Source: Escallonia rubra
Lineage: Eukaryota > Streptophyta > Magnoliopsida > Escalloniales > Escalloniaceae
Length of the DNA stretch: 64,000 bases
Direction of reading: 5' to 3'
Assembly: GCA_033065855.1 (NCBI GenBank)
Contig: JAVXUO010001427.1
Coordinates: 62,001-126,000, forward strand
The notes under the pieces are model-generated. The model worked only from the letters and a program-made list of their open reading frames with translations. It ran no database searches and was not told the origin of the DNA. This document shows positions 20,320 through 57,700 of this stretch, piece after piece. The position numbers and the translations under genes were made by a program. Numbering within the stretch: position 1 is the stretch's first letter; every line of letters begins with the position of its first letter.

Positions 20320-21075
20320 GGTTCGTTTGACAAAATTTTTTTTTTGGTTTTCAGTTTTTAAAGAGCAGTTTTTTAAAGAGCAGCTTAATTTTTTTTTTTT
20401 ATAAAAACAAGTGGGTGTTTGATAACCCCTTTTTTTTTAGGTTTTTTTTTTTTGGTGTTTGGTAACCTTTTTTTTTTTGACTTTTTTTTTTTTTGGTGGT
20501 TTGCGGTGGCGGTGGTGGGGTGTAGCGGTGGTGGCGGTGGTGGCCGGCGGCCGGAGGTGGCTGCCGGCAGTCGCCGGCGGTGGTCGCCGGCGGCCGGAGG
20601 CGGCTGCCGGCAGTCGCCGGCGGTGGTCGCCGGCGGCCGGAGGCGGCTGCCGGCAGTCTCCGGCGGTGGTCGCCGGCGGCCGGAGGCGGCTGCCGGCAGT
20701 CTCCGGCGGTGGTTGCCGGCGGCCGGCGGTGGTCGCCTGAGGTGGCTGCCGGCGGTGGTCGCCGGCGGCCGGAGGTGGCTGCCGGCGGCCGGAGGTGGTG
20801 GTGGTGGCCGGCGGCCGGAAGTGGCTACCGGCAGTCTCCGGCGGTGGTCGCCTGAGGTGGCTGCCGGCGGTGGTGGCCGGCGGCCGGAGGTGGCTGCCGG
20901 CAGTCGCCGGCGGTGGTCGCCGGCGGCCGGAGGTGGTGGTGGTGGCCGGCGGCCGGAGGTGGCTGCCGGCAGTCTCCGGCGGTGGTCGCCGGCGGCCGGC
21001 GGTGGTCGCCTGAGGTGGCTGCCGGCGGTGGGAGGGTGGTGGTGGTGGTCTAAGAAAAAAAACCAAAAGTTGAAA
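20320..21075. repeat. GC-rich 43-bp minisatellite inside an A/T-tract element
   Basis: From about 20500 to 21040 the DNA is almost entirely C, G and T in the motif TGGTCGCCGGCGGCCGGAGG and variants. The basic period is about 43 bp with shortened units and (GGT)n runs. It is bordered by T-rich arms with GGTTTTCAGTTTTT on the left and AAAACCAAAAGTTGAAAA on the right, suggesting the arms of a MITE that opens with GGGTTCGTTTGACAAAA. All six frames are partly open because the repeat lacks stops, which creates artificial 200-codon frames on both strands. Confidence 0.8.
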
Positions 21076-38507: not shown

Positions 38508-38581
38508 TGGCCCATGCAGGTCTCGAACCTGCGACCTTCGCGTTATTAGCACGACGCTCTAACCAACTGAGCTAATGGGCC
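38508..38581 (-). tRNA. tRNA-Ile, anticodon AAU
   Basis: 74 nt reading GGCCCATTAGCTCAGTTGG at the 5' end. The 7-bp acceptor stem pairs GGCCCAT with ATGGGCC. The D-arm carries A-box TTAGCTCAGTTGG, the anticodon loop is CTAATAA, and the T-arm carries GGTTCGAGACC (B box). There is no intron and CCA is not encoded. Confidence 0.97.
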
Positions 38582-42000: not shown

Positions 42001-44125
42001 TACATAACATTAATAAACAAATTAACAAAAAAAATATAGATAGACCAAATCGATTTGGTAGTCAGATGATTTCGTAGATCAAGGTAGATCTGTCAAAATA
42101 TCAGCCTTCATCAGTGAGGGCGGTGAATCTATCTTCGGCGAGTGGCGACGGTGAGGATTTGGCGGTGATCTGACTTTTGGTTCAAATCCGTGGTCAGCCA
42201 GTGCTTGAACGACGGTGGTGACGGATTGACAACTGACGGCGGAGCTGCGACTGAGCTGTGTCTTTAAGACGACAGTGACGGATTAAACGACGAACTATGG
42301 AGCGACCTTGGCACCGTCGAGTTTACTTGATGTGCAGAGCGATCGTCGGTGTATCTGACGTTGGGGGGAAAGAGAGAGAAAGATTGGTGTGCGATGTGGG
42401 TGGATCTGACTTTGGGGGGAAAAAGAGAGAGAGAGAGAGACGGGTTATGTGTGAGAGAATGAGCAAGTTTAGAGAGGAAGGAGGTGGCGGCGAGAATGAA
42501 ATGAGAGGTGAAAGTGAAGATAAAGTGAAACCCTAATGCTTATATAATAAACATGTGCGGGTAGCCTGGGTAACCCGGACAGGACCGAACCGGAATTTAC
42601 GGGTAGGTCCGGGTACGGGTAGAATTTCAGCAGGTCTGTGATTCTTGTACCCGTACCCGGAATTTTTTTACGGCTACGGGTAGACCCGCAGGTACGGGCC
42701 TTTTTTTGCCAGGTCTACATAGCTCTCCTAACTTATGTAGGACTCTATTTTCTTTTCTAGTAGGATAGTGATCATTTATCAATATAATATCTCATTACAC
42801 TCAGTTTTATAATGCTCAGTAATTTAGTTATCTTTCCCTTACAAAAGAAAATACAAAAATATTTTGCAAAATACGCTGTGCATGTAAGCCACATCCATGT
42901 GCAGCCTCTTGGAAGTGACGACTACATGCTTAAAAGTAGCAAAACGCCACTGATAATGGGTAGAACCGCAGAACAAATTTTGAATTGAATTCAGAGGGGG
43001 GTGGAAGTGCCGAACAACCAAGCCAGGCCAGAAGACAGTTGGCAACCAACTGCTCTGCTACAAAAGTCCAGTCTGATTGCCATTTATATGAGTAATTATA
43101 TATCCCCACACACAAGATTCCATTTTGTTTTCCCCATATTAACCTACTCTTGATCGCAACACCTTACCCTCTCATTTAACCTATCAAGTTCATAACTTAG
43201 AAGAATGTTGGAAAAAATATTCTAGAAATAACAGCTGGAAAAGAACACCTAAAATCCACATCATGGTACCAACATCGGTCATCAGTTTATTGAGTTACTA
43301 GTTGTTCTAAGAACTTAAACTATCGATCAGAAAATGAGCCCAACAAAATGTATCATGCTTTAACGAGGAGGGTGCGTGAAAAGCAAACAAAGTTAATCTA
43401 TATTTGCGATGAGAGCAAGAACGCATGAACGAAAGAAAGCGAGAGCAAGAATTGATAGCGGACATTTTGCCCTATTCTGGAAGGAACTTGGTGTATCGGA
43501 TTTGGGATATAACTTACATCTTTGACATCTTGGTCAGTCAGATACCCAGCCTTGAGCATAGTGGCAGCAACGTACACGGCCAGGCTGATTTTCTTTGCAA
43601 ACTTGTGAGTTGCCTGGGTCACACTCAGTCCTCCTGCACTGTGTCCAACCAATATCACCTGTGTACATACGCAAATAAGCAGGCATAATTACCTCATATT
43701 AGTCCAATCCTGATCATATGTGAAGCTTATATAAGCACTTCATCTAGCTAGTATGTAAACGAAGTACTGCTGCTTAAGATCACATATACTGCATTAAAAG
43801 TTGTATGTTGGTCTGACACAAAGATAAATGCTCTGAATAAGACGGTGGGATTGACTGGGACCTGCTCGTTATCGGGTAAGGCAGACATGAAGTCCATCAG
43901 AGGCTGGTTGTAATCTTGAAAATCAAGAACAGTGTTTGGGTTGGAGCGGTCGACGCCGGCACCTTTGAGGTCGAGACAGGAGACCTTGTAGCCGGAGTTC
44001 TCCATTAGACATCTGATTTTGTACCAGCACCACGATCCTCCGCTCAAGCCATGTATCAGCACAAAGTGTGGCTGCCTCAAGTACAAGCTGCTGATGGCCT
44101 CTTCGGTCTTCTTGATGATCAGCAT
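39049..44125 (-). CDS. MES17: Methylesterase, MES17-like alpha/beta hydrolase
   Basis: An alpha/beta-hydrolase of the plant MES family, which frees hormones from methyl esters; MES17 acts on methyl-IAA. Four exons: 43862-44125, 43518-43658, 39683-39817 and 39049-39339, in frame, 276 residues, the same length I recall for Arabidopsis MES17. PHFVLIHGLSGGSWCWYK (19-36) gives the oxyanion region. The triad is S95 in VGHSAGG, D222 in TLYDRV and H249 in ESDHSPFFS. The exon 1 donor is GTCCCAG, a weak site. Intron 2 is 3.7 kb and holds an LTR element with a nested hAT element; introns 1 and 3 are short. A TATA box lies 66-73 bp upstream of the ATG. The substrate is inferred from similarity only; a MES18-type relation is also possible from gene order. 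Confidence 0.93.
40095..42843 (+). mobile_element. Non-coding LTR element in MES intron 2
   Basis: A left LTR of about 195 bp (40095-40287, TGTTAAATAATGTATATCAA...) and a right LTR (from 41544, TGTTATATAATACAGTATAT, to about 42843) match along their length, except that the right one is split by a hAT element. A decayed primer site (TGGTACTGGATCC, compare TGGTATCAGAGCC) follows the left LTR, and a purine tract GAGTTTGAGAAGGGA precedes the right LTR. The interior of about 1.25 kb has degenerate CTTGCCC.GAGACT repeats (40915-41400) and no gag or pol. It is TRIM/LARD-like. The 5-bp target repeat was not resolved. Confidence 0.75.
41625..42717. mobile_element. hAT-type element nested in the 3' LTR
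   Basis: The ends are TAGACCTGGCAAACGGG and its inverted form TTTGCCAGGTCTA. The flanks CATAACTC (41617-41624) and CATAGCTC (42718-42725) agree at 7 of 8 positions, a hAT-length target duplication. Subterminal GGGTAACCCG/ACGGGTA repeats fill both arms. The 1.09-kb core has GCGACGGTGA-rich DNA and (GA)n but no transposase. Confidence 0.8.
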
Positions 44126-44365: not shown

Positions 44366-44371
44366 AAAAAT

Positions 44372-45534
44372 GGTTAATTACTCACGGCACCCTTGAGATT
44401 TACCCTAAATTACACACGGACCCCCCTATCTTTTGAAAATTACACTCCGCTCCCCCAGGTTTGTACCCGCATTTCACGGAGCCCCACAAAATTGACGGGG
44501 ACCCTAACTCCATCTAAAGATTCTCTGACACCTTACTTTTTGGATTTTCATCCCCAAACTGCCCTCCCTTTCTTGAAAATCACCAACCTTTGAGGATTCA
44601 CCAGGAACATCGTAAACTTGGTCACCGCCTTGGTCCCCTCAGAAACGGCGTGCTTGGCCAATTCACCAGGCCAGAAGCACAAGCCTAACAGCAGTCTGGA
44701 TCTCGCGGGAGGTGATGGTGGGCTTCTTGGTGTACATGGCGAGCCTGGAAGACTCCTGGGCCAGCTTCTCGAAGATGTCGTTGATGAAGCTGTTCATTAT
44801 CCCCATGGCCTTGCTCGAGATCCCTATGTCCGGGTGGACCTGCTTCAAGGCCTTAAAGATGTAGATCTTGTAGGTCTCGACAGACTTCTTCTGATCTTTT
44901 TATCTCCGGCAGCGGTGGAGCCAGCCTCCTTGGGGAGCTTCTTGCCGGCCTTGGGCTTCTTCTCGGCGACGGTGGGCTTCTTCTCCTCCGCCGACTTCTT
45001 CTCCGGCGATGGACTCCGGCGTCTCCTACAGTGTACACCACGACACAACATCGGCGACCACCGCGCGAGATTTATCATCTGCGCCATCTTCGGTGCCATC
45101 TCGTGGTCAACCACCCCTCATCTCTGGCCACACCCCTCATCGGAAGTACCGCCCAACACCCCTGCGCACCCTTGCGACACCAAACACCGCACGACTTCAT
45201 CACCGGTGAACCCAAAGCCGCATGCCTGACACCGTCGCCCTCCATTGGAAGCACCACCCGCCGCAACCTCCAAAACAGCCATGGAATCACTACTGTCGGC
45301 ATCGTATCCGGTCCCCGATGGCCGATTCCGGCTAGTGTAGCCAAGAGTGAAGAGCCAGACAGTCCCTCCAAAATCCAAGACGATACTGTGTAGTTAATAT
45401 ACAAGGGTAAAAATGTCTTTTTGCGTCCCACCGTTAACACCGTCGAAGAAATGGAGCGGAGTGTAATTTTCAAAAGATAAGGGGGTCCGTGTGTAATTTA
45501 GGGTAAACCTCAGGGGTGTCGTAAGTAATTAACC
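44372..45534. mobile_element. Pack-MULE-like element carrying histone H2B sequence
   Basis: Left (44372-about 44455) and right (about 45451-45534) ends are inverted repeats of about 83 bp. They begin GGTTAATTACTCACGGCACC on the left and, inverted, GGTTAATTACTTACGACACC on the right, with CACACGGACCCCC inside. They resemble the GGGTTAATTAC ends of the element at 2041. No transposase is present. The core consists of a nearly full H2B coding region (minus strand) fused to about 380 bp of GC-rich DNA of unknown origin (45010-45390). The target repeat is obscured by A runs. TIR length, lack of transposase and a captured gene fit a Pack-MULE. Confidence 0.75.
44604..45006 (-). pseudogene. Histone H2B pseudogene, copy 1
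   Basis: The minus strand reads the H2B N-terminal tail ([17 protein letters not shown]), then after a frameshift at about 44895 (AGATCAG replacing the AAG run) the histone fold ([35 protein letters not shown]). A second frameshift follows VRLVL (near 44675), before ELAKHAV. The ATG and first residues and the true stop are missing. Two frameshifts make it non-functional as H2B. Plant H2B genes are intronless, so capture from genomic DNA leaves no intron trace. Confidence 0.88.
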
Positions 45535-46807
45535 CAAAAAGGGTTAAGGGAGCCTGGGTGTGTGAAGGTGGGGGGGGGGGGGGGGGAGGGGATACTCTAC
45601 AAATATGTCACATCTTGTACCTACCCAAGAAGAAGCCACAATTTCTTCTCCATTCTTTATTGCTGATTTTTATCATGGAATGCTGGGGAAGCAAATGTCC
45701 TTTTGGCCCCCTGATTTCCGGTGAATTTGCACACCAGCGCTCCACCATTGACGCTAGGCGACAAGGTTCTTTAAATCTTTTATGTTGACAATCATTTCTT
45801 ACTGTCGAGATTCAAGTAATTCTCCCTCTCTTTTCCTTTGCTCCTTGTAAATTACCAGCTTATTATTGCTGCTGTACAGAGTAACATCCACTGCTTCACC
45901 TGTCACTTGTGGGGAAAGTTCGCGTGGTGTTTTTCTTGATTTAAAGTATACGATACATTATTAAATAATTAAGAAGGTACTAAGAAGTTAAAAAAATACA
46001 CTATATTTTTGTGTGTTATTTTACTAATAAATATTTTCACTGATTTTAATATAATGTTAGCGCCCCCCCAAGATGAAATCCTGGCTCCGCCACTTTATAG
46101 TTGGGTCTTGTTTGATCTCTTTGGGGTGTTCAATATGCTGGTTGGAATAGTCGTAAGTGTGATAATTATCACACTAAAATCCATAGTTTGGTGATTGAGT
46201 TATGATAAGAGGATAAGTTTGGTGTTTGTATACTCAAATGTCATGATGAAGTATGCATTGCATGGAGTTTTGTACTCTCAATTTGTAGCATTTGACATTT
46301 GTTTGATAGTTAAGCTGTTGACCATTTCAAAATGTATTTGGTCTTCATGTTGGATTGATTTATCCACCTCAATTTTCTATTTCATACTTGTCTTTTCTCG
46401 CGAGGAAATAGATTGGCGCCGTATATTGATGACTTATTAGATTATTTTTGACAAACTTCTTTCAACTCTCTGTTTAGTGATAAAAAAATCATCACTAAAG
46501 CTCGTTGTGGCACTTCTAACAGTATTTTTAGCGACAAGCTGTTGCTAGCAATTTCGCCATTGTTGCTGAAGCACTATAGGAAGTGTCACAAAAAAATTTG
46601 TAGCAACCACTTATGTTGCTGAAAAGGAGGGTTGGGCAAAAAAATTCTCAAATTTTATAGTTTTTCGTCTTTCAAAATTCAATTCTTTACCACTTTTTTG
46701 AATCTCCAAAATAACAATGCAAAATCATACATTCATCTTTTCGATTTCTACATTGCAATGTCCCGAATGTCGTAAGAAGATGTAGAAGATGTACATGTTC
46801 TTTTTCG
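45535..46807. other. Non-coding spacer of the 2.2-kb unit
   Basis: Starts with a G-rich run (45571-45587), then AGAAGAAGCCACA-type DNA like the MES upstream region. A CTGGCTCCGCCACT motif (46081-46094) is like a hAT right terminus, and TTTTTAGCGACAAGCTGTTGCTAGCA repeats (46525-46560) recall CACTA subterminal repeats. 60-80-codon frames recur in all units but lack motifs. The same content occurs at 47750-49008 and 49950-51215. Confidence 0.6.
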
Positions 46808-46815
46808 ATTCACCA

Positions 46816-47218
46816 GGAACATCGTAAACTTGGTCACCGCCTTGGTCCCCTCAGAAACGGCGTGCTTGGCCAATTCACCAGGCCAGAAGCACAAGCCTAA
46901 CAGCAGTCTGGATCTCGCGGGAGGTGATGGTGGGCTTCTTGGTGTACATGGCGAGCCTGGAAGACTCCTGGGCCAGCTTCTCGAAGATGTCGTTGATGAA
47001 GCTGTTCATTATCCCCATGCCCTTGCTCGAGATCCCTATGTCCGGGTGGACCTGCTTCAAGGCCTACAAGATGTAGATCTTGTAGGTCTCGACAGACTTC
47101 TTCTGATCTTTTTATCTCCGGCAGCGGTGGAGCCAGCCTCCTTGGGGAGCTTCTTGCCGGCCTTGGGCTTCTTCTCGGCGACGGTGGGCTTCTTCTCCTC
47201 CGCCGGCTTCTTCTCCGG
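46816..47218 (-). pseudogene. Histone H2B pseudogene, copy 2
   Basis: It has the same structure and the same two frameshifts as copy 1, with a few private changes: KGM for KAM in the fold, and a TAC giving a stop-like change near 47065. Sharing the AGATCAG frameshift shows copies 1 and 2 are closest relatives. Confidence 0.88.
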
Positions 47219-49016
47219 CGATGGACTCCGGCGTCTCCTACAGTGTACACCACGACACAACATCGGCGACCACCGCGCGAGATTTATCATCTGCGCCATC
47301 TTCGGTGCCATCTCGTGGTCAACCACCCCTCATCTCTGGCCACACCCCTCATCGGAAGTACCGCCCAACACCCCTGCGCACCATTGCGACACCAAACACC
47401 GCACGACTTCATCACCGGTGAACCCAAAGCCGCATGCCTGACACCGTCGCCCTCCATTGGAAGCACTGCCCGCCGCAACCTCCAAAACAACCATGGAATC
47501 ACTACTGTCGGCAGCGTATCCGGTCCCCGATGGCCGATTTCGGCTAGTGTAGCCAAGAGTGAAGAGCCAGACAGTCCCTCCAAAATCCAAGACGATACTG
47601 TGTAGTTAATATACAAGGGTAAAAATGTCTTTTTGCGTCCCACCGTTAACACCATCGAAGAAATGGAGCGGAGTGTAATTTTCAAAAGATAAGGGGGTCC
47701 GTGTGTAATTTAGGGTAAACCTCAGGGATGTCGTGAGTAATTAACCCAAAAAAGGGTTAAGGGAGCCTGGGTTGGTGAGGGTGTTGAAGGGGGGGGGGGT
47801 GGGAGGGGATACTCTACAAATATGTCACATCTTGTACCTACCCAAGAAAAGCCATAGTTTCTTCTCCATTCTTTATTGCTGATATTTATCATGGAATGCT
47901 GGGGAAGCAAATGTCCTTTTGGCCCCCTAATTTCCGGTGAATTTACACACCGGCGCTCCACCATTGACGCCAGGCGACAAGGTTCTTTAAATCTTTTATG
48001 TTGACACGAGATTCAAGTAATTCTCCCTCTCTTTTCCTTTGCTCCTTGTAAATTACCAGCTTATTATTGCTGCTGTACAGAGTAACATCCATTGCTTCAC
48101 CTGTCACTTGTGGGGAAAGTTTGCGTGGTGTTTTTCTTGATTTAAAGTATACGAGACATTATTAAATAATTAAGAAGGTACTAAGAAGTTAAAAAAACAC
48201 ACTCTATTTTTGTGTGTTATTTTACTAATAAATATTTTCACTGATTTTAATATAATGTTAGCGCCCCCCCAAGATGAAATCCTGGCCCCGCCACTTTATA
48301 GTTGGGTCTTGTTTGATCTCTTTGGGGTGTTCAATATGCTGGTTGGAATAGTCGTAAGTGTGATAATTATCACACTAAAATCCATAGTTTGGTGATTGAG
48401 TTATGATAAGAGGATAAGTTTGGTGTTTGTATACTCAAATGTCATGATGAAGTATGCATTGCATGGAGTTTTGTACTCTCAATTTGTAGCATTTGACATT
48501 TGTTTGATAGTTAAGCTGTTGACCATTTCAAAATGTATTTGGTCTTCATGTTGGATTGATTTATCCACCTCAATTTTCTATTTCATACTTGTCTTTTCTC
48601 GCGAGGAAATTGATTGGCGCCATATATTGATGACTTATTAGATTATTTTTGACAAACTTCTTTCAACTCTCTGTTTAGTGATAAAAAAATCATCACTAAA
48701 GCTCGTTGTGGCACTTCTAACAGTATTTTTAGCGACAAGTTGTTGCTAGCAATTTCGCCATTGTTGCTGAAGCACTATAGGAAGTATCACAAAAAAATTT
48801 GTAGCAACCACTTATGTTGCTGAAAAGGAGGGTTGGGCAAAAAAATTCTCAAATTTTATAGTTTTTCGTCTTTCAAAATTCAATTCTTTACCACTTTTTT
48901 GAATCTCCAAAATAACAATGCAAAATCATACATTCATCTTTTCGATTTCTACATTGCAATGTCCCGAATGTCGTAAGAAGATGTAGAAGATGTACATGTT
49001 CTTTTTCGATTCACCA

Positions 49017-49419
49017 GGAACATCGTAAACTTGGTCACCGCCTTGGTCCCCTCAGAAACGGCGTGCTTGGCCAATTCACCAGGTCGGAAGCACAAGCCTA
49101 ACAACAGTCTGGATCTCGCGGGAGGTGATGGTGGGCTTCTTGGTGTACATGGCGAGCCTGGAAGACTCCTGGGCCAGCTTCTCGAAGATGTCATTGATGA
49201 AGCTGTTCATTATCCCCATGGCCTTGCTTGAGATCCTTATGTCCGGGTGGACCTGCTTCAAGACCTTGAAGATGTAGATCTTGTAGGTCTCGACAAACTT
49301 CTTCTTCTTTTTGTCTCCGGCAGCAGCGGAGCCAGCCTCCTTGGGGAGCTTCTTGCCGACCTTGGGCTTCTTCTCGGCGACGGTGGGCTTCTTCTCCTCC
49401 GCCGGCTTCTTCTCCGGCG
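49017..49419 (-). pseudogene. Histone H2B pseudogene, copy 3 (longest frame)
   Basis: Here the linker reads [20 protein letters not shown] without the frameshift of copies 1 and 2, so one frame (49076-49525, minus, 149 codons) joins 36 foreign residues ([12 protein letters not shown]...) to H2B tail and histone fold through [11 protein letters not shown]. It then hits a 4-base insertion and a stop, losing the last helix (ELAKHAVSEGTKAVTKFT lies in another frame). No promoter or expression evidence exists. Probably a pseudogene, but the only copy able to make an H2B-like chimera. Confidence 0.85.
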
Positions 49420-51215
49420 ATGGACTCCGGCGTCTCCTACAGTGTACACCACGACACAACATCGGCGACCACCGCGCGAGATTTATCATCTGCGCCATCT
49501 TCGGTGCCATCTCGTGGTCAACCACCCTTCATTCTCCGGCCACACCCCTCACCGGAAGTACCGCCCAACACCCCTGCGCACCATTGCGACACCAAACACC
49601 GCACGACTTCATCACCGGTGAACCCAAAGTCGCATGCCTAACACCGTCGCCCTCCATTGGAAGCACCACCCGCCGCAACCTCCAAAACAGCCATGGAATC
49701 ACTACTGTCGGCATCGTATCCGGTCCCCGATGGCCGATTCCGGCTAGTGTAGCCAAGAGTGAAGAGCCAGACAGTCCCTCCAAAATCCAAGACGATACTA
49801 TGTAGTTAATATACAAGGGTAAAAATGTCTTTTTGCATCTCACCGTTAACACCATCAAAGAAATGGAGTGGAGTGTAATTTTCAAAAGATACGGGGGTCC
49901 GTGTGTAATTTAGGGTAAACCTCAGGGGTGTCGTAAGTAATTAACCCAAAAAGGGTTAAGGGAGCCTGGGTGTGTGAGGGTGTTGAAGGGGGGGGGGGGG
50001 GGGGGTGGGAGGGGATACTCTCCAAATCTGTCACATCTTGTACCTACCCAAGAAGAAGCCACAGTTTCTTCTCCATTCTTTATTGCTGATTTTTATCATG
50101 GAATGCTGGGGAAGCAAATGTCCTTTTGGCCCCCTAATTTCCGGTGAATTTACACACCGGCGCTCCACCATTGACGCTAGGCGACAAGGTTCTTTAAATC
50201 TTTTATGTTGACACGAGATTCAAGTAATTCTCCCTCTCTTTTCCTTTGTTCCTTGTAAATTACCAGCTTATTATTGCTGCTGTACAGAGTAACATCCATT
50301 GCTTCACCTGTCACTTGTGGGGAAAGTTTGCGTGGTGTTTTTCTTGATTTAAAGTATACGAGACATTATTAAATAATTAAGAAGGTACTAAGAAGTTAAA
50401 AAAACACACTCTATTTTTGTGTGTTATTTTACTAATAAATATTTTCACTGATTTTAATATAATGTTAGCGCCCCCCCAAGATGAAATCCTGGCTCTGCCA
50501 CTTTATAGTTGGGTCTTGTTTGATCTCTTTGGGGTGTTCAATATGCTTGTTGGAATAGTCGTAAGTGTGATAATTATCACAGTAAAATCCATAGTTTGGT
50601 GATTGAGTTATGATAAGAGGATAAGCTTGGTGTTTGTATACTCAAATGTCATGATGAAGTATGCATTGCATGGAGTTTTGTACTCTCATTTTGTAGCATT
50701 TGACATTTGTTTGATAGTTAAGCTGTTGACCATTTCAAAATGTATTTGGTCTTCATGTTGGATTGCTTTATCCACCTCAATTTTCTATTTCATACTTGTC
50801 TTTTCTCGCGAGGAAATAGATTGGCGCCGTATATTGATGACTTATTAGATTATTTTTGACAAACTTCTTTCAACTCTCTGTTTAGTGATAAAAAAATCAT
50901 CACTAAAGCTCGTTGTGGTATTTCTAACAGTATTTTTAGCGACAAGCTGTTGCTAGCAATTTCGCCATTGTTGCTGAAGCACTATAGGAAGTGTCACAAA
51001 AAAATTTGTAGCAACCACTTATGTTGCTGAAAAGGAGGGTTGGGCAAAAAAATTCTCAAATTTTATAGTTTTTCGTCTTTCAAAATTCAATTCTTTACCA
51101 CTTTTTTGAATCTCCAAAATAACAATGCAAAATCATACATTCATCTTTTCGATTTCTACATTGCAATGTCCCGAATGTCGTAAGAAGATGCAGAAGATGT
51201 ACATGTTCTTTTTCG

Positions 51216-55051: not shown

Positions 55052-57700
55052 TAGAGTTGTCATTAGGGCCGGGCGGCCCGCGGGCGGGCCCGGTGTGTGA
55101 ACAGTGACGGCCCGCGCGAAGAGGGCCTGAGGCCTGGGCCTGGACCAGGCCGAAAAATCTGGAGAAAATGGCCCGGCCCGGCCCTGTTGGCCCGGTTTGG
55201 CCCGGGCCTGGCCCGGTCTGCGGCCCGGTTTTTTTGGCCCGGTCTGCGGCCCGGTTTGGCCCCACTTTTTTTGAATCTCTAACTTTTCCCCCCCTTTCTT
55301 CCACCCCTTTTCCAAAATTCCACTTTTACCCCCCCAACAGCTATATAACGGCTAGTTTGGGGGGTATTTTAGTCTAACCAATATTTTTCACTCCTTTACA
55401 CTTTTACCCTCCCCAACAACTATAAACGGATAGTTTGTAGGGGTATTTTGGTCTTTTGTGAAGTTTCTAAAATCTATAAATTCACACCATTTCTCTCTAA
55501 TTTTTCACACCAATCTTCTTACTCTCTTCTTACTCTCACAACAAGCTTTGCTACTATTTTTCTCTCCAATTACTTCTCTTGCTAATTACTACTAATTAGT
55601 ATTCTTGTTATTTACTAATTGCTAATTTCTCTCTACTCTTGCTAATTACTACACTAGTCTTGCTAAATTTTTTTTAATTACTAACTCTCTAATATTTGTT
55701 ACTCGTTCATTCTTTTAATTGTTATTTCTTATTACTACTCTTATACTTGTGTATTTAGTTACTCTTACAAAGTTTAGCGTGAAATATGGCTGGATTATTG
55801 AAGAAAATGAGGCATGCATCGTCATCACGAAAAACGTCATCATCATCGCAAGCACCACCACCAGCACAAGCGCCAGCGCCACGGCCATCACAAACACCAG
55901 TCCAAGCACCAACACAACCATTCGTTCCTGGACGAATGAGTACAGGCTGTATGATAGATACCCAAGCCAATTGGGAGTTCAATCAAAACATTCCAGATTT
56001 TACATACACGCCTGATGAAGACCAAACGAATTATAGTCAAGGACGCAGCTCATTTGGCAAAGCTACTACTCCGTGAACTAATCTCAACCCTATGCCCAGG
56101 CATGATGAAGGCAGGCCGAGCAATGCCTCCGGTAACGTGCCAGACGTAAAAAAAAAAAAAAAAAGAAAGCCGAGTGTTGGAATCATTTCGACGAAGTTAC
56201 GGTGGACGGCATCCGAAAAGCTCGATGTAAGTACTGTCTTAAATTATTTTCGTCTGGTAGTGGTAATGGACATCTTAACAGGCATTACCCTCAGTGTGCA
56301 CCTCGACAAGGCCACGTCGAACCTACCCAAACGCAGTTATCTTTTGACGGTAAGTTATTTGTTTATAATCAGCGAGAGCAAAAAGACGGTCTCGCTGAAT
56401 TTGTTATTCATGATGAACAAGCCTTTTCTTTTGCCGATAATCCTAAGCACTCTAGATATATGAACACCTACGTTCAACCTTTGTACAAAAAGGTTCATAG
56501 AAACACAACTAGGTCCGATGCACTCCGACAGTACAATGCTGCCAAAGCACGCCTTATCGATTATTTCGATAAATTTGACGGTAAAGTTAGTCTTACTTCT
56601 GATATTTGGCAATCTCCTTATACTTTTGTTAGTTATTCTTGTGTGACCGCTCATTGGATTGATGCAGATTGGGTTATGCACAAGAGAATCATCGCTTTCG
56701 AGCACTTCCCTTATTCGCACGATGGAATGAACATTGCTACTCTTATATTAAAATCATGCACTACATTTAAAATTAAGAATAAAATTATAAGTGTTAGTTT
56801 TGATAATGCTTCTAACAATAAAGTTGCTGTTGCAGCTTTAAAGGAGACGCTTCAACCTGTACTTCATGGTGAATTATTTCATGTTCGCTGTGTTTGTCAC
56901 ATTATTAATTTAATTGTTCAAGATGGTTTAGCTGCTGCAGGAGATATTCTTCTCAAAATGAGGGGTATGACAGCGTATGTTAATAGCTCGAGTCCGAGAA
57001 CACAACAATTTAAAACGTTGTGTGTTCAATATAATATGCCTCGCAGGAGAGCAGTTACAGATGTGGTCCACATGTGGAACTCTACGTACCCCATGCTTTT
57101 ACACATTCTGGCATACCGACAAGTCTCTACGCATTTTCTACTGACCTAGTTCCCAGCCGGCTTGCTAACTCAAGAGGAATGGCAGATGGCCACATACCTA
57201 GCTGAATTTTTTGAGGTATTCTACACGTCTACCAATTTATTGTCTGGTACGTACTATCCCACCTCTCCTCTTCCTTTAATAGAAATTCTGACGATGGCTA
57301 CAGTGTTAACAGAATGCAGATATATAGGACCATTTAGGGAAATAGTACAAGTGATGGATGCAAAGTTCAATAAATATTGGCGTAAACTGCCTGCTATTTT
57401 TACTGTGGCTACTTGTTTAGATCCTAGGTTAAAGTTGCATGGCGTGAACGCCTCGATACAAGAGATATCAAAATTAATGTGCTACACAGCAGATGACACA
57501 ACCTTGCTCACAGCAAAAGTGAGCAGGAGGTTTGAGGGTAATGCCTGTTAAGATATCCATTACCAATATTGGCGTAAACTGCCTGCTTTCTGGCAATTGA
57601 CCTTACGTTAAAACACGAGTGGAACATCTGGTACTAAAAGTTTTCAAGAGCAAGTTTTGGACACTCATCTTAGTCATTTCCTCCGAATTCTGAAATGCTT
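55052..57700 (+). mobile_element. Decayed autonomous-type hAT transposon
   Basis: The left end TAGAGTTGTCATTAGGGCCG, followed by dense GGCCCGG repeats (55070-55265), is typical of a plant hAT family. The transposase gene follows (55786-57551). No matching inverted right end was found downstream, so the 3' side is deleted or rearranged. A 23-bp block AATATTGGCGTAAACTGCCTGCT occurs both at about 57373 and 57566, which may mark the break. Confidence 0.7.
55786..57551 (+). pseudogene. hAT transposase with BED finger, broken
   Basis: The first frame (55786-56076) is a Ser/Ala/Pro-rich N-terminus. An A16 run at about 56149 separates it from the next frame, which contains the BED zinc finger (WNHFDEV, CKYC, HLNRH; about 56175-56300). 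The RNase H-like catalytic region follows (SLTSDIWQSPYTFVSYSCVT, ISVSFDNASNN, HVRCVCHIINLIVQDGL). An in-frame TAG at 57147-57149 interrupts it. The frame then resumes with LLTQEEWQMATYLAEFFEVF and LPAIFTVATCLDPRLKL and ends at 57551. The C-terminal hATC dimerisation domain is missing. The frameshift, nonsense codon and truncation make it inactive. Confidence 0.85.

Follow-up and report, generated by a model that had tools for sequence, protein, structure and literature searches.

Local triplication of a decayed member of a dispersed Pack-MULE family as the probable basis of a histone H2B array in Escallonia rubra

Introduction

The closest described counterparts of the locus reported here are the Pack-MULEs, Mutator-like elements (MULEs) that carry captured host coding DNA between terminal inverted repeats (TIRs). 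Extracts of PMC3310237 give the target site duplication of MULEs as 9-11 bp and their TIRs as long, typically 100-500 bp; they describe a tomato Pack-MULE family, PM-ZIBP, with 14 copies, as well as MULEs with multiple or tandem TIRs (Ferguson and Jiang 2012), in which the additional TIRs are mostly in tandem and some of which have been amplified. Transduplication by cut-and-paste elements has been described in grapevine (PMC2528002) with different cargo, in a text that nowhere uses the word histone. Extracts of a report on animal Pack-TIRs (PMC8277862) contain a case more alike in cargo, a TIR element involving an H2B gene (H2BC15), although there an intronic region became part of the 3' untranslated region of the gene itself and here we are dealing with dispersed plant coding DNA. 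The subject of this report is a tandem array of repeats bearing histone H2B coding DNA in Escallonia rubra, contained in a stretch of 64,000 nucleotides (hereafter the window; contig JAVXUO010001427.1, positions 62,001 to 126,000) that is part of contig C2685 in our designation. We are highly confident that the array derives from a single decayed member of a dispersed Pack-MULE family, triplicated in place. The family has in common with known Pack-MULEs its TIRs, its 9-bp target duplications, the host coding DNA that it has captured, multiple dispersed copies and a relative of autonomous type whose ends are the same; unlike them, it has almost the whole coding region of a core histone as its cargo, and its chimeric junction is present at ~70 loci. 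No plant Pack-MULE with H2B was found by title or by the start of the abstract within the open literature library that we searched, the animal H2BC15 event being the only H2B case encountered there. Gene capture of this kind is known; what sets the family apart is the unusual cargo and the large number of copies.

The tandem array and its element

Three direct repeats of ~2.2 kb, 96-97% identical, span window positions 44595-51215 (unit 1, 44595-46806; unit 2, 46807-49007; unit 3, 49008-51215), and alignment of the units bears out the three H2B-bearing repeats seen in the initial annotation. Identity outside gaps is 98.1% between units 1 and 2, 97.4% between units 1 and 3, and 97.5% between units 2 and 3. 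Unit 1 is the sole unit with both ends of a non-autonomous MULE (44371-45535; 1.16 kb), whose limits, (T/G)GGTTAATTAC...GTAATTAACCC, were set from relatives with target duplications. An inverted-repeat search places the only copy of the left TIR at 44372-44453 on the plus strand, and right TIRs on the minus strand at 45453-45534 (unit 1), 47665-47746 (unit 2) and 49865-49946 (unit 3). The TIR pair initially annotated around unit 1 is present, with arms of 82 bp rather than 83 bp that are 94% complementary; the left TIR is 93-94% complementary to the right TIRs of all three units, and it also matches the ends of a MuDR-like element, L069, discussed below. A 22-base TIR core has four matches in the window against 0.00 expected by chance. 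No transposase was recognised in the element, the Pfam search having been run on two H2B open reading frames (ORFs) of the array only and having returned histone families.

The H2B coding DNA lies on the minus strand in all three units and covers nt ~27/31-440 of the 450-nt host H2B coding sequence; alignment to the donor coding sequence places it at 44612-45008, 46824-47220 and 49025-49419 in units 1, 2 and 3, respectively. A GC-rich segment (45009-45362), either captured or filler, lies between H2B and the MULE end sequence, and is delimited by its junction with H2B, which recurs at ~70 loci, and by the matches of L069, which are to element positions 1-206 and 992-1163 only. The part of the element from H2B to the right end is present three times in tandem together with 1.27 kb of flank, with mosaic differences among the copies. 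This flank, as represented in unit 1, splits into a portion of an older dispersed repeat (~45547-46094; recurring in units 2 and 3), the probable insertion target of the MULE, with one related MULE-free copy, L064, and a portion from ~46102 to 46806 (query positions 568-1271). Of 556 first-look candidates for the flank 40 were scored, and among these the second portion has matches in the three units and nowhere else. Since the repeated block includes this portion, the duplication was local, in agreement with the initial annotation. The dispersed repeat itself is ~550 bp long, with its far edge at CCTGGCTCCGCCACT. A MULE with tandem TIRs was considered, the likeness being the presence of more than two TIR copies per structure, and was rejected: successive right TIRs are separated by ~2.2 kb that includes flank specific to the locus, and the array is thus a segmental tandem duplication.

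A dispersed family of H2B-carrying elements

Genome searches covered the 566-Mb assembly (3,222 contigs). With the element of unit 1 as query, 40 of 2,024 first-look candidates were scored and yielded 156 matches; those beyond the window units are dispersed sites matching one or both element ends, and seven matches cover element positions 1-1161 or more at 88-93% identity. The initial annotation had named absence of the TIR pair elsewhere in the genome as grounds for refuting its reading, and the TIR tip is in fact found at 1,262 genome sites (625+637) with no more than two mismatches, the reversed control giving none. A 25-base pattern spanning the junction of H2B with the foreign DNA, allowing up to three mismatches, occurs at 80 sites (39+41; control 0), which reduce to 72 loci when near sites on one contig are merged and to 70, the window locus included, when two doubtful loci with one common three-mismatch variant are set aside. 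Four further H2B elements (L009, L018, L020 and L055) have lost part of the junction and stand outside this count. H2B DNA was retrieved from 33 dispersed element loci, the remaining junction loci being known only from the pattern and, for some, from BLAST rows. The pairs L010/L013 and L014/L015 share flanks, so that each is probably a single insertion and is counted once, and L020 and L022, neighbours on contig C1809, have 480 bp of flank in common. Dispersed loci have different flanks and target duplications of their own, as expected of Pack-MULEs moving and multiplying as a unit.

In a tree of the H2B segments, 28 MULE rows (window units included) are separated from the six host H2B genes with support of 98/92, and they adjoin the host genes L035, L038 and L040; six short H2B pieces (L021, L023-L027) were left out of the tree, and a more distant H2B match, L054, was left out of both gene sets. 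From the common junction and this grouping we infer that H2B was captured once and then spread by the MULE to dozens of genome sites.

Several members have further peculiarities. The junction recurs two to three times at a spacing of ~120-124 bp at C1041:336770-337035, C1235:119939-120205, C966:185707-185852 and C1674:278701-278849, and some members therefore seem to hold short tandem repeats of the H2B tail; L011 has two additional H2B tail fragments. L020 has an in-frame 15-bp insertion duplicating KIYIF in an otherwise open H2B frame. In L028 (contig C333), ~125 bp (1307-1431) absent from the other retrieved loci lies between the MULE end sequence and the H2B match; it contains GTAAGT after an exon-like stretch and is possibly a third captured fragment.

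Target duplications and a MuDR-like relative

The limits of the family, (T/G)GGTTAATTAC...GTAATTAACC(C), are bordered by 9-bp direct duplications. At least eight of the nine bases match in 21 of 26 two-ended elements, compared with 11 of 650 mismatched flank pairs; the 26 are those remaining of 30 loci when the window units L003 and L012, and L010 and L013, which have no left TIR, are left out. Duplications of this length have the Mutator-like size, and at the level of the family these elements are therefore MULEs. The strict inverted match between the ends of the window element is 82 bp, and the end sequences that it has in common with L069 reach 206 bp and ~172 bp.

Among the first places listed for the TIR tip there are six TIR pairs 5.6-6.0 kb apart, one of which (on contig C388) was retrieved and is L069. 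The first 206 bp of the element match this 6-kb sequence at 94% identity and the last 172 bp at 80% (182 alignment columns). L069 encodes a PF03108 MuDR DNA-binding domain (1.1e-14), part of a PF10551 MULE transposase domain and a SWIM finger (1e-4), and thus supplies a cognate element with a MuDR-type transposase. It is MuDR-like, and likely a relative of the mobilising element. The Pack-MULE character proposed in the initial annotation is upheld by the target duplications of the family, the abundance of the TIR tip and L069, and at the family level these are Pack-MULEs in the sense defined in the extracts of PMC3310237.

Donor gene and mode of capture

There are six host H2B genes (L035, L036, L038, L040, L041 and L043), all complete, uninterrupted ORFs on two contigs of adjacent number (C1792 and C1793); L041 stands furthest from the others at the DNA level (90% to L035), yet its protein is nearly identical. 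Weaker H2B-like places are present on C2312, at several positions on C2475, and on C2502. The TIR of this family was not found in the retrieved flanks of the six genes.

The copy reaching furthest past the stop codon is L028, which matches the gene L035 (C1792:392231-392644) over 469 bp at 95% identity, through a changed stop codon and 66 nt further. No poly(A) was found where this match ends, and the five other host genes match L028 less far; for these reasons capture was most likely at the DNA level, and the match points to L035, or a close copy of it, as the putative donor. The Pack-MULEs thus have an identifiable parent among the host genes, and the initial proposal that the H2B came from one is sustained by this match and by the tree. 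The other dispersed full-span copies, 17 in number, lose similarity to H2B before the stop codon, at nt 439-440 (nt 410 in L004), so that on this side L028 preserves most of what was captured.

Reading frames in the window

The H2B reading frame is broken in each of the three units. All of them carry, at H2B nt 381, a 4-bp insertion that was missed in the initial annotation, and none can therefore encode a whole H2B. Units 1 and 2 share an additional 2-bp insertion (44893-44894 and 47105-47106), correctly noted initially as a frameshift absent from copy 3, and unit 2 also has a stop at codon 68; absence of the 2-bp insertion, as in unit 3, is the family state. The ORF list gives unit 3 a 149-codon ORF (49076-49525, minus strand), which matches Pfam PF00125 (E = 3e-20) and many H2B chains in the PDB, e.g. 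8kcb_D 'Histone H2B.10' (2e-46), a chain of plant origin. Both of its ends are altered in the alignment to the donor: the helices of the histone fold are retained and the last, C-terminal, H2B helix is lost. It had been put forward as a potential 149-residue chimera, a suggestion that fares poorly given that it ends early by the shared 4-bp insertion and that its listed start is GTG.

The suggestion that copy 3 is nearer the captured state holds at that one indel and goes no further, as its identity to donor H2B is no higher (95.6% vs 95.9% and 95.7% in the other two units) and the branch lengths in the tree are equal (0.02 for unit 3 and 0.02 for the stem of units 1+2). The window copy has 15-bp and 9-bp deletions in common with L002, L021 and L053, and is not firmly joined to them in the tree; the 9-bp deletion, kept by unit 3, recurs with its position unchanged in six dispersed elements (L002, L005, L009, L010, L021 and L053).

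Origin of the array

At the junction between units, flank ending ...CTTTTTCG joins the H2B side beginning ATTCACC..., with one base in common, and this single shared base suggests that end joining may have been involved. The informative sites favour a grouping of units 1+2 in 39 cases, of units 1+3 in 22 and of units 2+3 in 16; 13 of the last 16 fall within 45566-46003, a clustering reached in 2 of 20,000 permutations in a scan statistic. Simple descent of copies 1 and 2 from a later duplication, as initially proposed, does not account for this middle block, and exchange or conversion between units probably came after duplication. Five copies of the flanking repeat were retrieved, and in one of them, L064, like sequence is present on both sides without the MULE (the left flank judged by eye); the MULE seems to have gone into the A-run of a dispersed repeat older than itself.

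The array may be accounted for by a short series of events. H2B would have been captured once by a MULE with these ends, and mobilised by the MuDR-type transposase of the 6-kb elements having the same ends. The window copy would then have landed in the A-run of the older repeat, on the upstream side of an alpha/beta-hydrolase gene; end joining would have produced the first tandem duplication, leaving the 1-bp overlap at the junction, and unequal exchange and conversion would have given rise to the third unit and the mosaic. The H2B segments themselves are most likely passengers.

Coding potential and selection

The H2B frame is open past the junction in eight of 18 dispersed full-span copies (L002, L005, L007, L008, L010, L016, L028 and L020, the last judged from its translation), and the captured stretch itself is without both ends of the H2B gene. 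In the family majority an R has changed to M and an N to T within the histone fold (AMYTKKPT vs ARYNKKPT).

Selection was assessed from private changes, with reference rates taken from the noncoding portions of the elements themselves; window units 1 and 2 were left out of the first counts and unit 1 out of the noncoding rates (unit 2 is not in that alignment). The nonsynonymous/synonymous ratio is 0.62 (p 0.019) in 32 copies and 0.52 (p 0.001) in the 26 copies that only a DNA query was needed to find. As the shortage is stronger in this DNA-query subset, a bias introduced by the protein query does not explain it. The shortage is alike in broken and unbroken copies, at 0.63 (p 0.046) in 24 of the former vs 0.57 (p 0.048) in eight of the latter, and the host H2B genes have a ratio of 0.04. 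From a multiple alignment, with unit 1 left out, the ratio is 0.87 (p 0.44) with the badly aligned rows L029 and L030 included, 0.73 (p 0.16) in 19 full-span copies and 0.65 (p 0.035) in 32 copies. The wrong reading frames of the same stretch give ratios of 0.78-1.03 (smallest p 0.23), and in a version without the noncoding standard silent changes outside CpG are also above expectation. There is no firm sign that the captured copies are working histones, and the H2B segments most likely have no role beyond being carried.

Alternative explanations

The initial annotation treated the capture as peculiar to the window, with copy 3 as an ancestral unit encoding the 149-residue chimera. An array does exist there, and unit 3 is without the 2-bp insertion and keeps the 9-bp deletion found in the six dispersed elements; capture at or for this locus is ruled out, however, by the presence of the chimeric junction at ~70 loci together with the single group that the compared copies form in the tree. 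The 4-bp frameshift in unit 3, and the conflict between the mosaic middle block and a simple duplication of units 1+2, speak against the ancestral status of copy 3, and the whole account is very improbable. A retrocopy, in which H2B mRNA would have been reverse-transcribed and inserted, and by chance later enclosed by MULE ends, is granted by the intronless state of the six host genes only that introns cannot separate DNA from mRNA capture. It is rejected, its probability being close to nil: L028 has no poly(A) at the end of its match past the donor stop, the 9-bp duplications are at the MULE ends (in L028 too) and not around H2B, and one chimeric junction is common to the ~70 loci. The retrocopy marks that, by the initial annotation, would have refuted its reading were thus not found.

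Two further accounts concern what the captured DNA may do. If the H2B-carrying elements, the array included, give rise to small RNAs, these could act on the host H2B genes. Between 18% and 69% of the 21-mers of the six host coding regions occur in at least one of 33 element loci, and for the window array the figure is 10-45%, the longest run in common being 113 nt, so that small-RNA cross-talk is possible; the sharing follows from sequence likeness alone, however, and the shuffled control is void, having been compared with a 24-mer pool of the elements in which a match was impossible. In maize, capturing elements are reported as reservoirs of small interfering RNAs able to silence donor genes, although essential donor genes may be protected by selection (both from extracts of PMC13317346), and overall we regard a regulatory role as unlikely. 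The plant might also employ some copies dispersed elsewhere in the genome to make H2B-like proteins that bear new tails; this would be consistent with the eight full-span frames without stop or frameshift past the junction and with the shortage of amino-acid changes in several analyses, which is strongest in the DNA-query copies. Yet this shortage is as strong in broken as in unbroken copies, is non-significant in two other analyses and is far from the ratio of the host genes, and the family majority carries the two substitutions in the histone fold; such use is improbable.

Some of our results weigh against the array being a copy, carried without function, of a Pack-MULE family that arose by a single capture. 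The root of the tree is its midpoint and the bootstrap had not settled, so that the shared junction counts for no less than the tree in the case for a single capture. The 9-mers flanking the window copy match at 4 of 9 positions, which is not a good target duplication; slippage in the A-run is perhaps the reason, and we can offer this as conjecture only. A MULE-free site is clear in just one of the five retrieved copies of the flanking repeat (L064), three of the five having aligned on the other strand, where they are uninformative on this point, and the scan statistic for the mosaic was chosen after the pattern was seen. In L069 the PF10551 match (2.4e-4) is below the curated cut-off, the transposase is spread over two separate ORFs, and the ends are without matching 9-mers (left, TAACATATA; right, TTTTCAATT). 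Finally, the ratios of 0.52-0.65 in several analyses (p 0.001-0.048) amount to a mild shortage of amino-acid changes, alike in broken and unbroken copies and not significant in the other analyses, and neutrality is not proved. With these points included, we still favour the reading of the array as a decayed Pack-MULE copy, one of a dispersed family, that was triplicated locally.

Other features of the window

ORFs resembling exons of an alpha/beta-hydrolase are present at 43398-44125 on the minus strand, of which 43748-44125 matches PF00561 and 43398-43658 was judged by eye. The hydrolase begins ~250 bp away from the MULE array and has the orientation of the H2B pieces, which puts the array in its present upstream region. 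Elsewhere in the window there are GC-rich direct repeats, 84% alike, inside a long low-complexity ORF (20533-20990), a tRNA gene on the minus strand (38508-38581; Rfam RF00005, 68.8 bits), and a 315-codon ORF (56202-57149) that resembles, by eye, a piece of a hAT-type transposase.

Significance

H2B genes are an essential and dosage-sensitive family. Here a single genome records the likely donor, one end of the capture, and the chimeric junction with its presence at ~70 loci, together with a probable autonomous partner and a later amplification in place. There is also a risk for annotation, in that several of the dispersed copies could pass as H2B genes by homology alone. A more speculative thought, which we regard as unlikely to be right, is that in making a core histone gene mobile and numerous (~70 loci, with several unbroken frames and new N- and C-terminal tails) the MULE family may feed back on nucleosome supply or H2B control, through chimeric proteins from a few dispersed copies or through small RNAs matching up to two thirds of host H2B coding sequence. 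The family is a good system for asking whether captured essential genes are silenced, tolerated or used.

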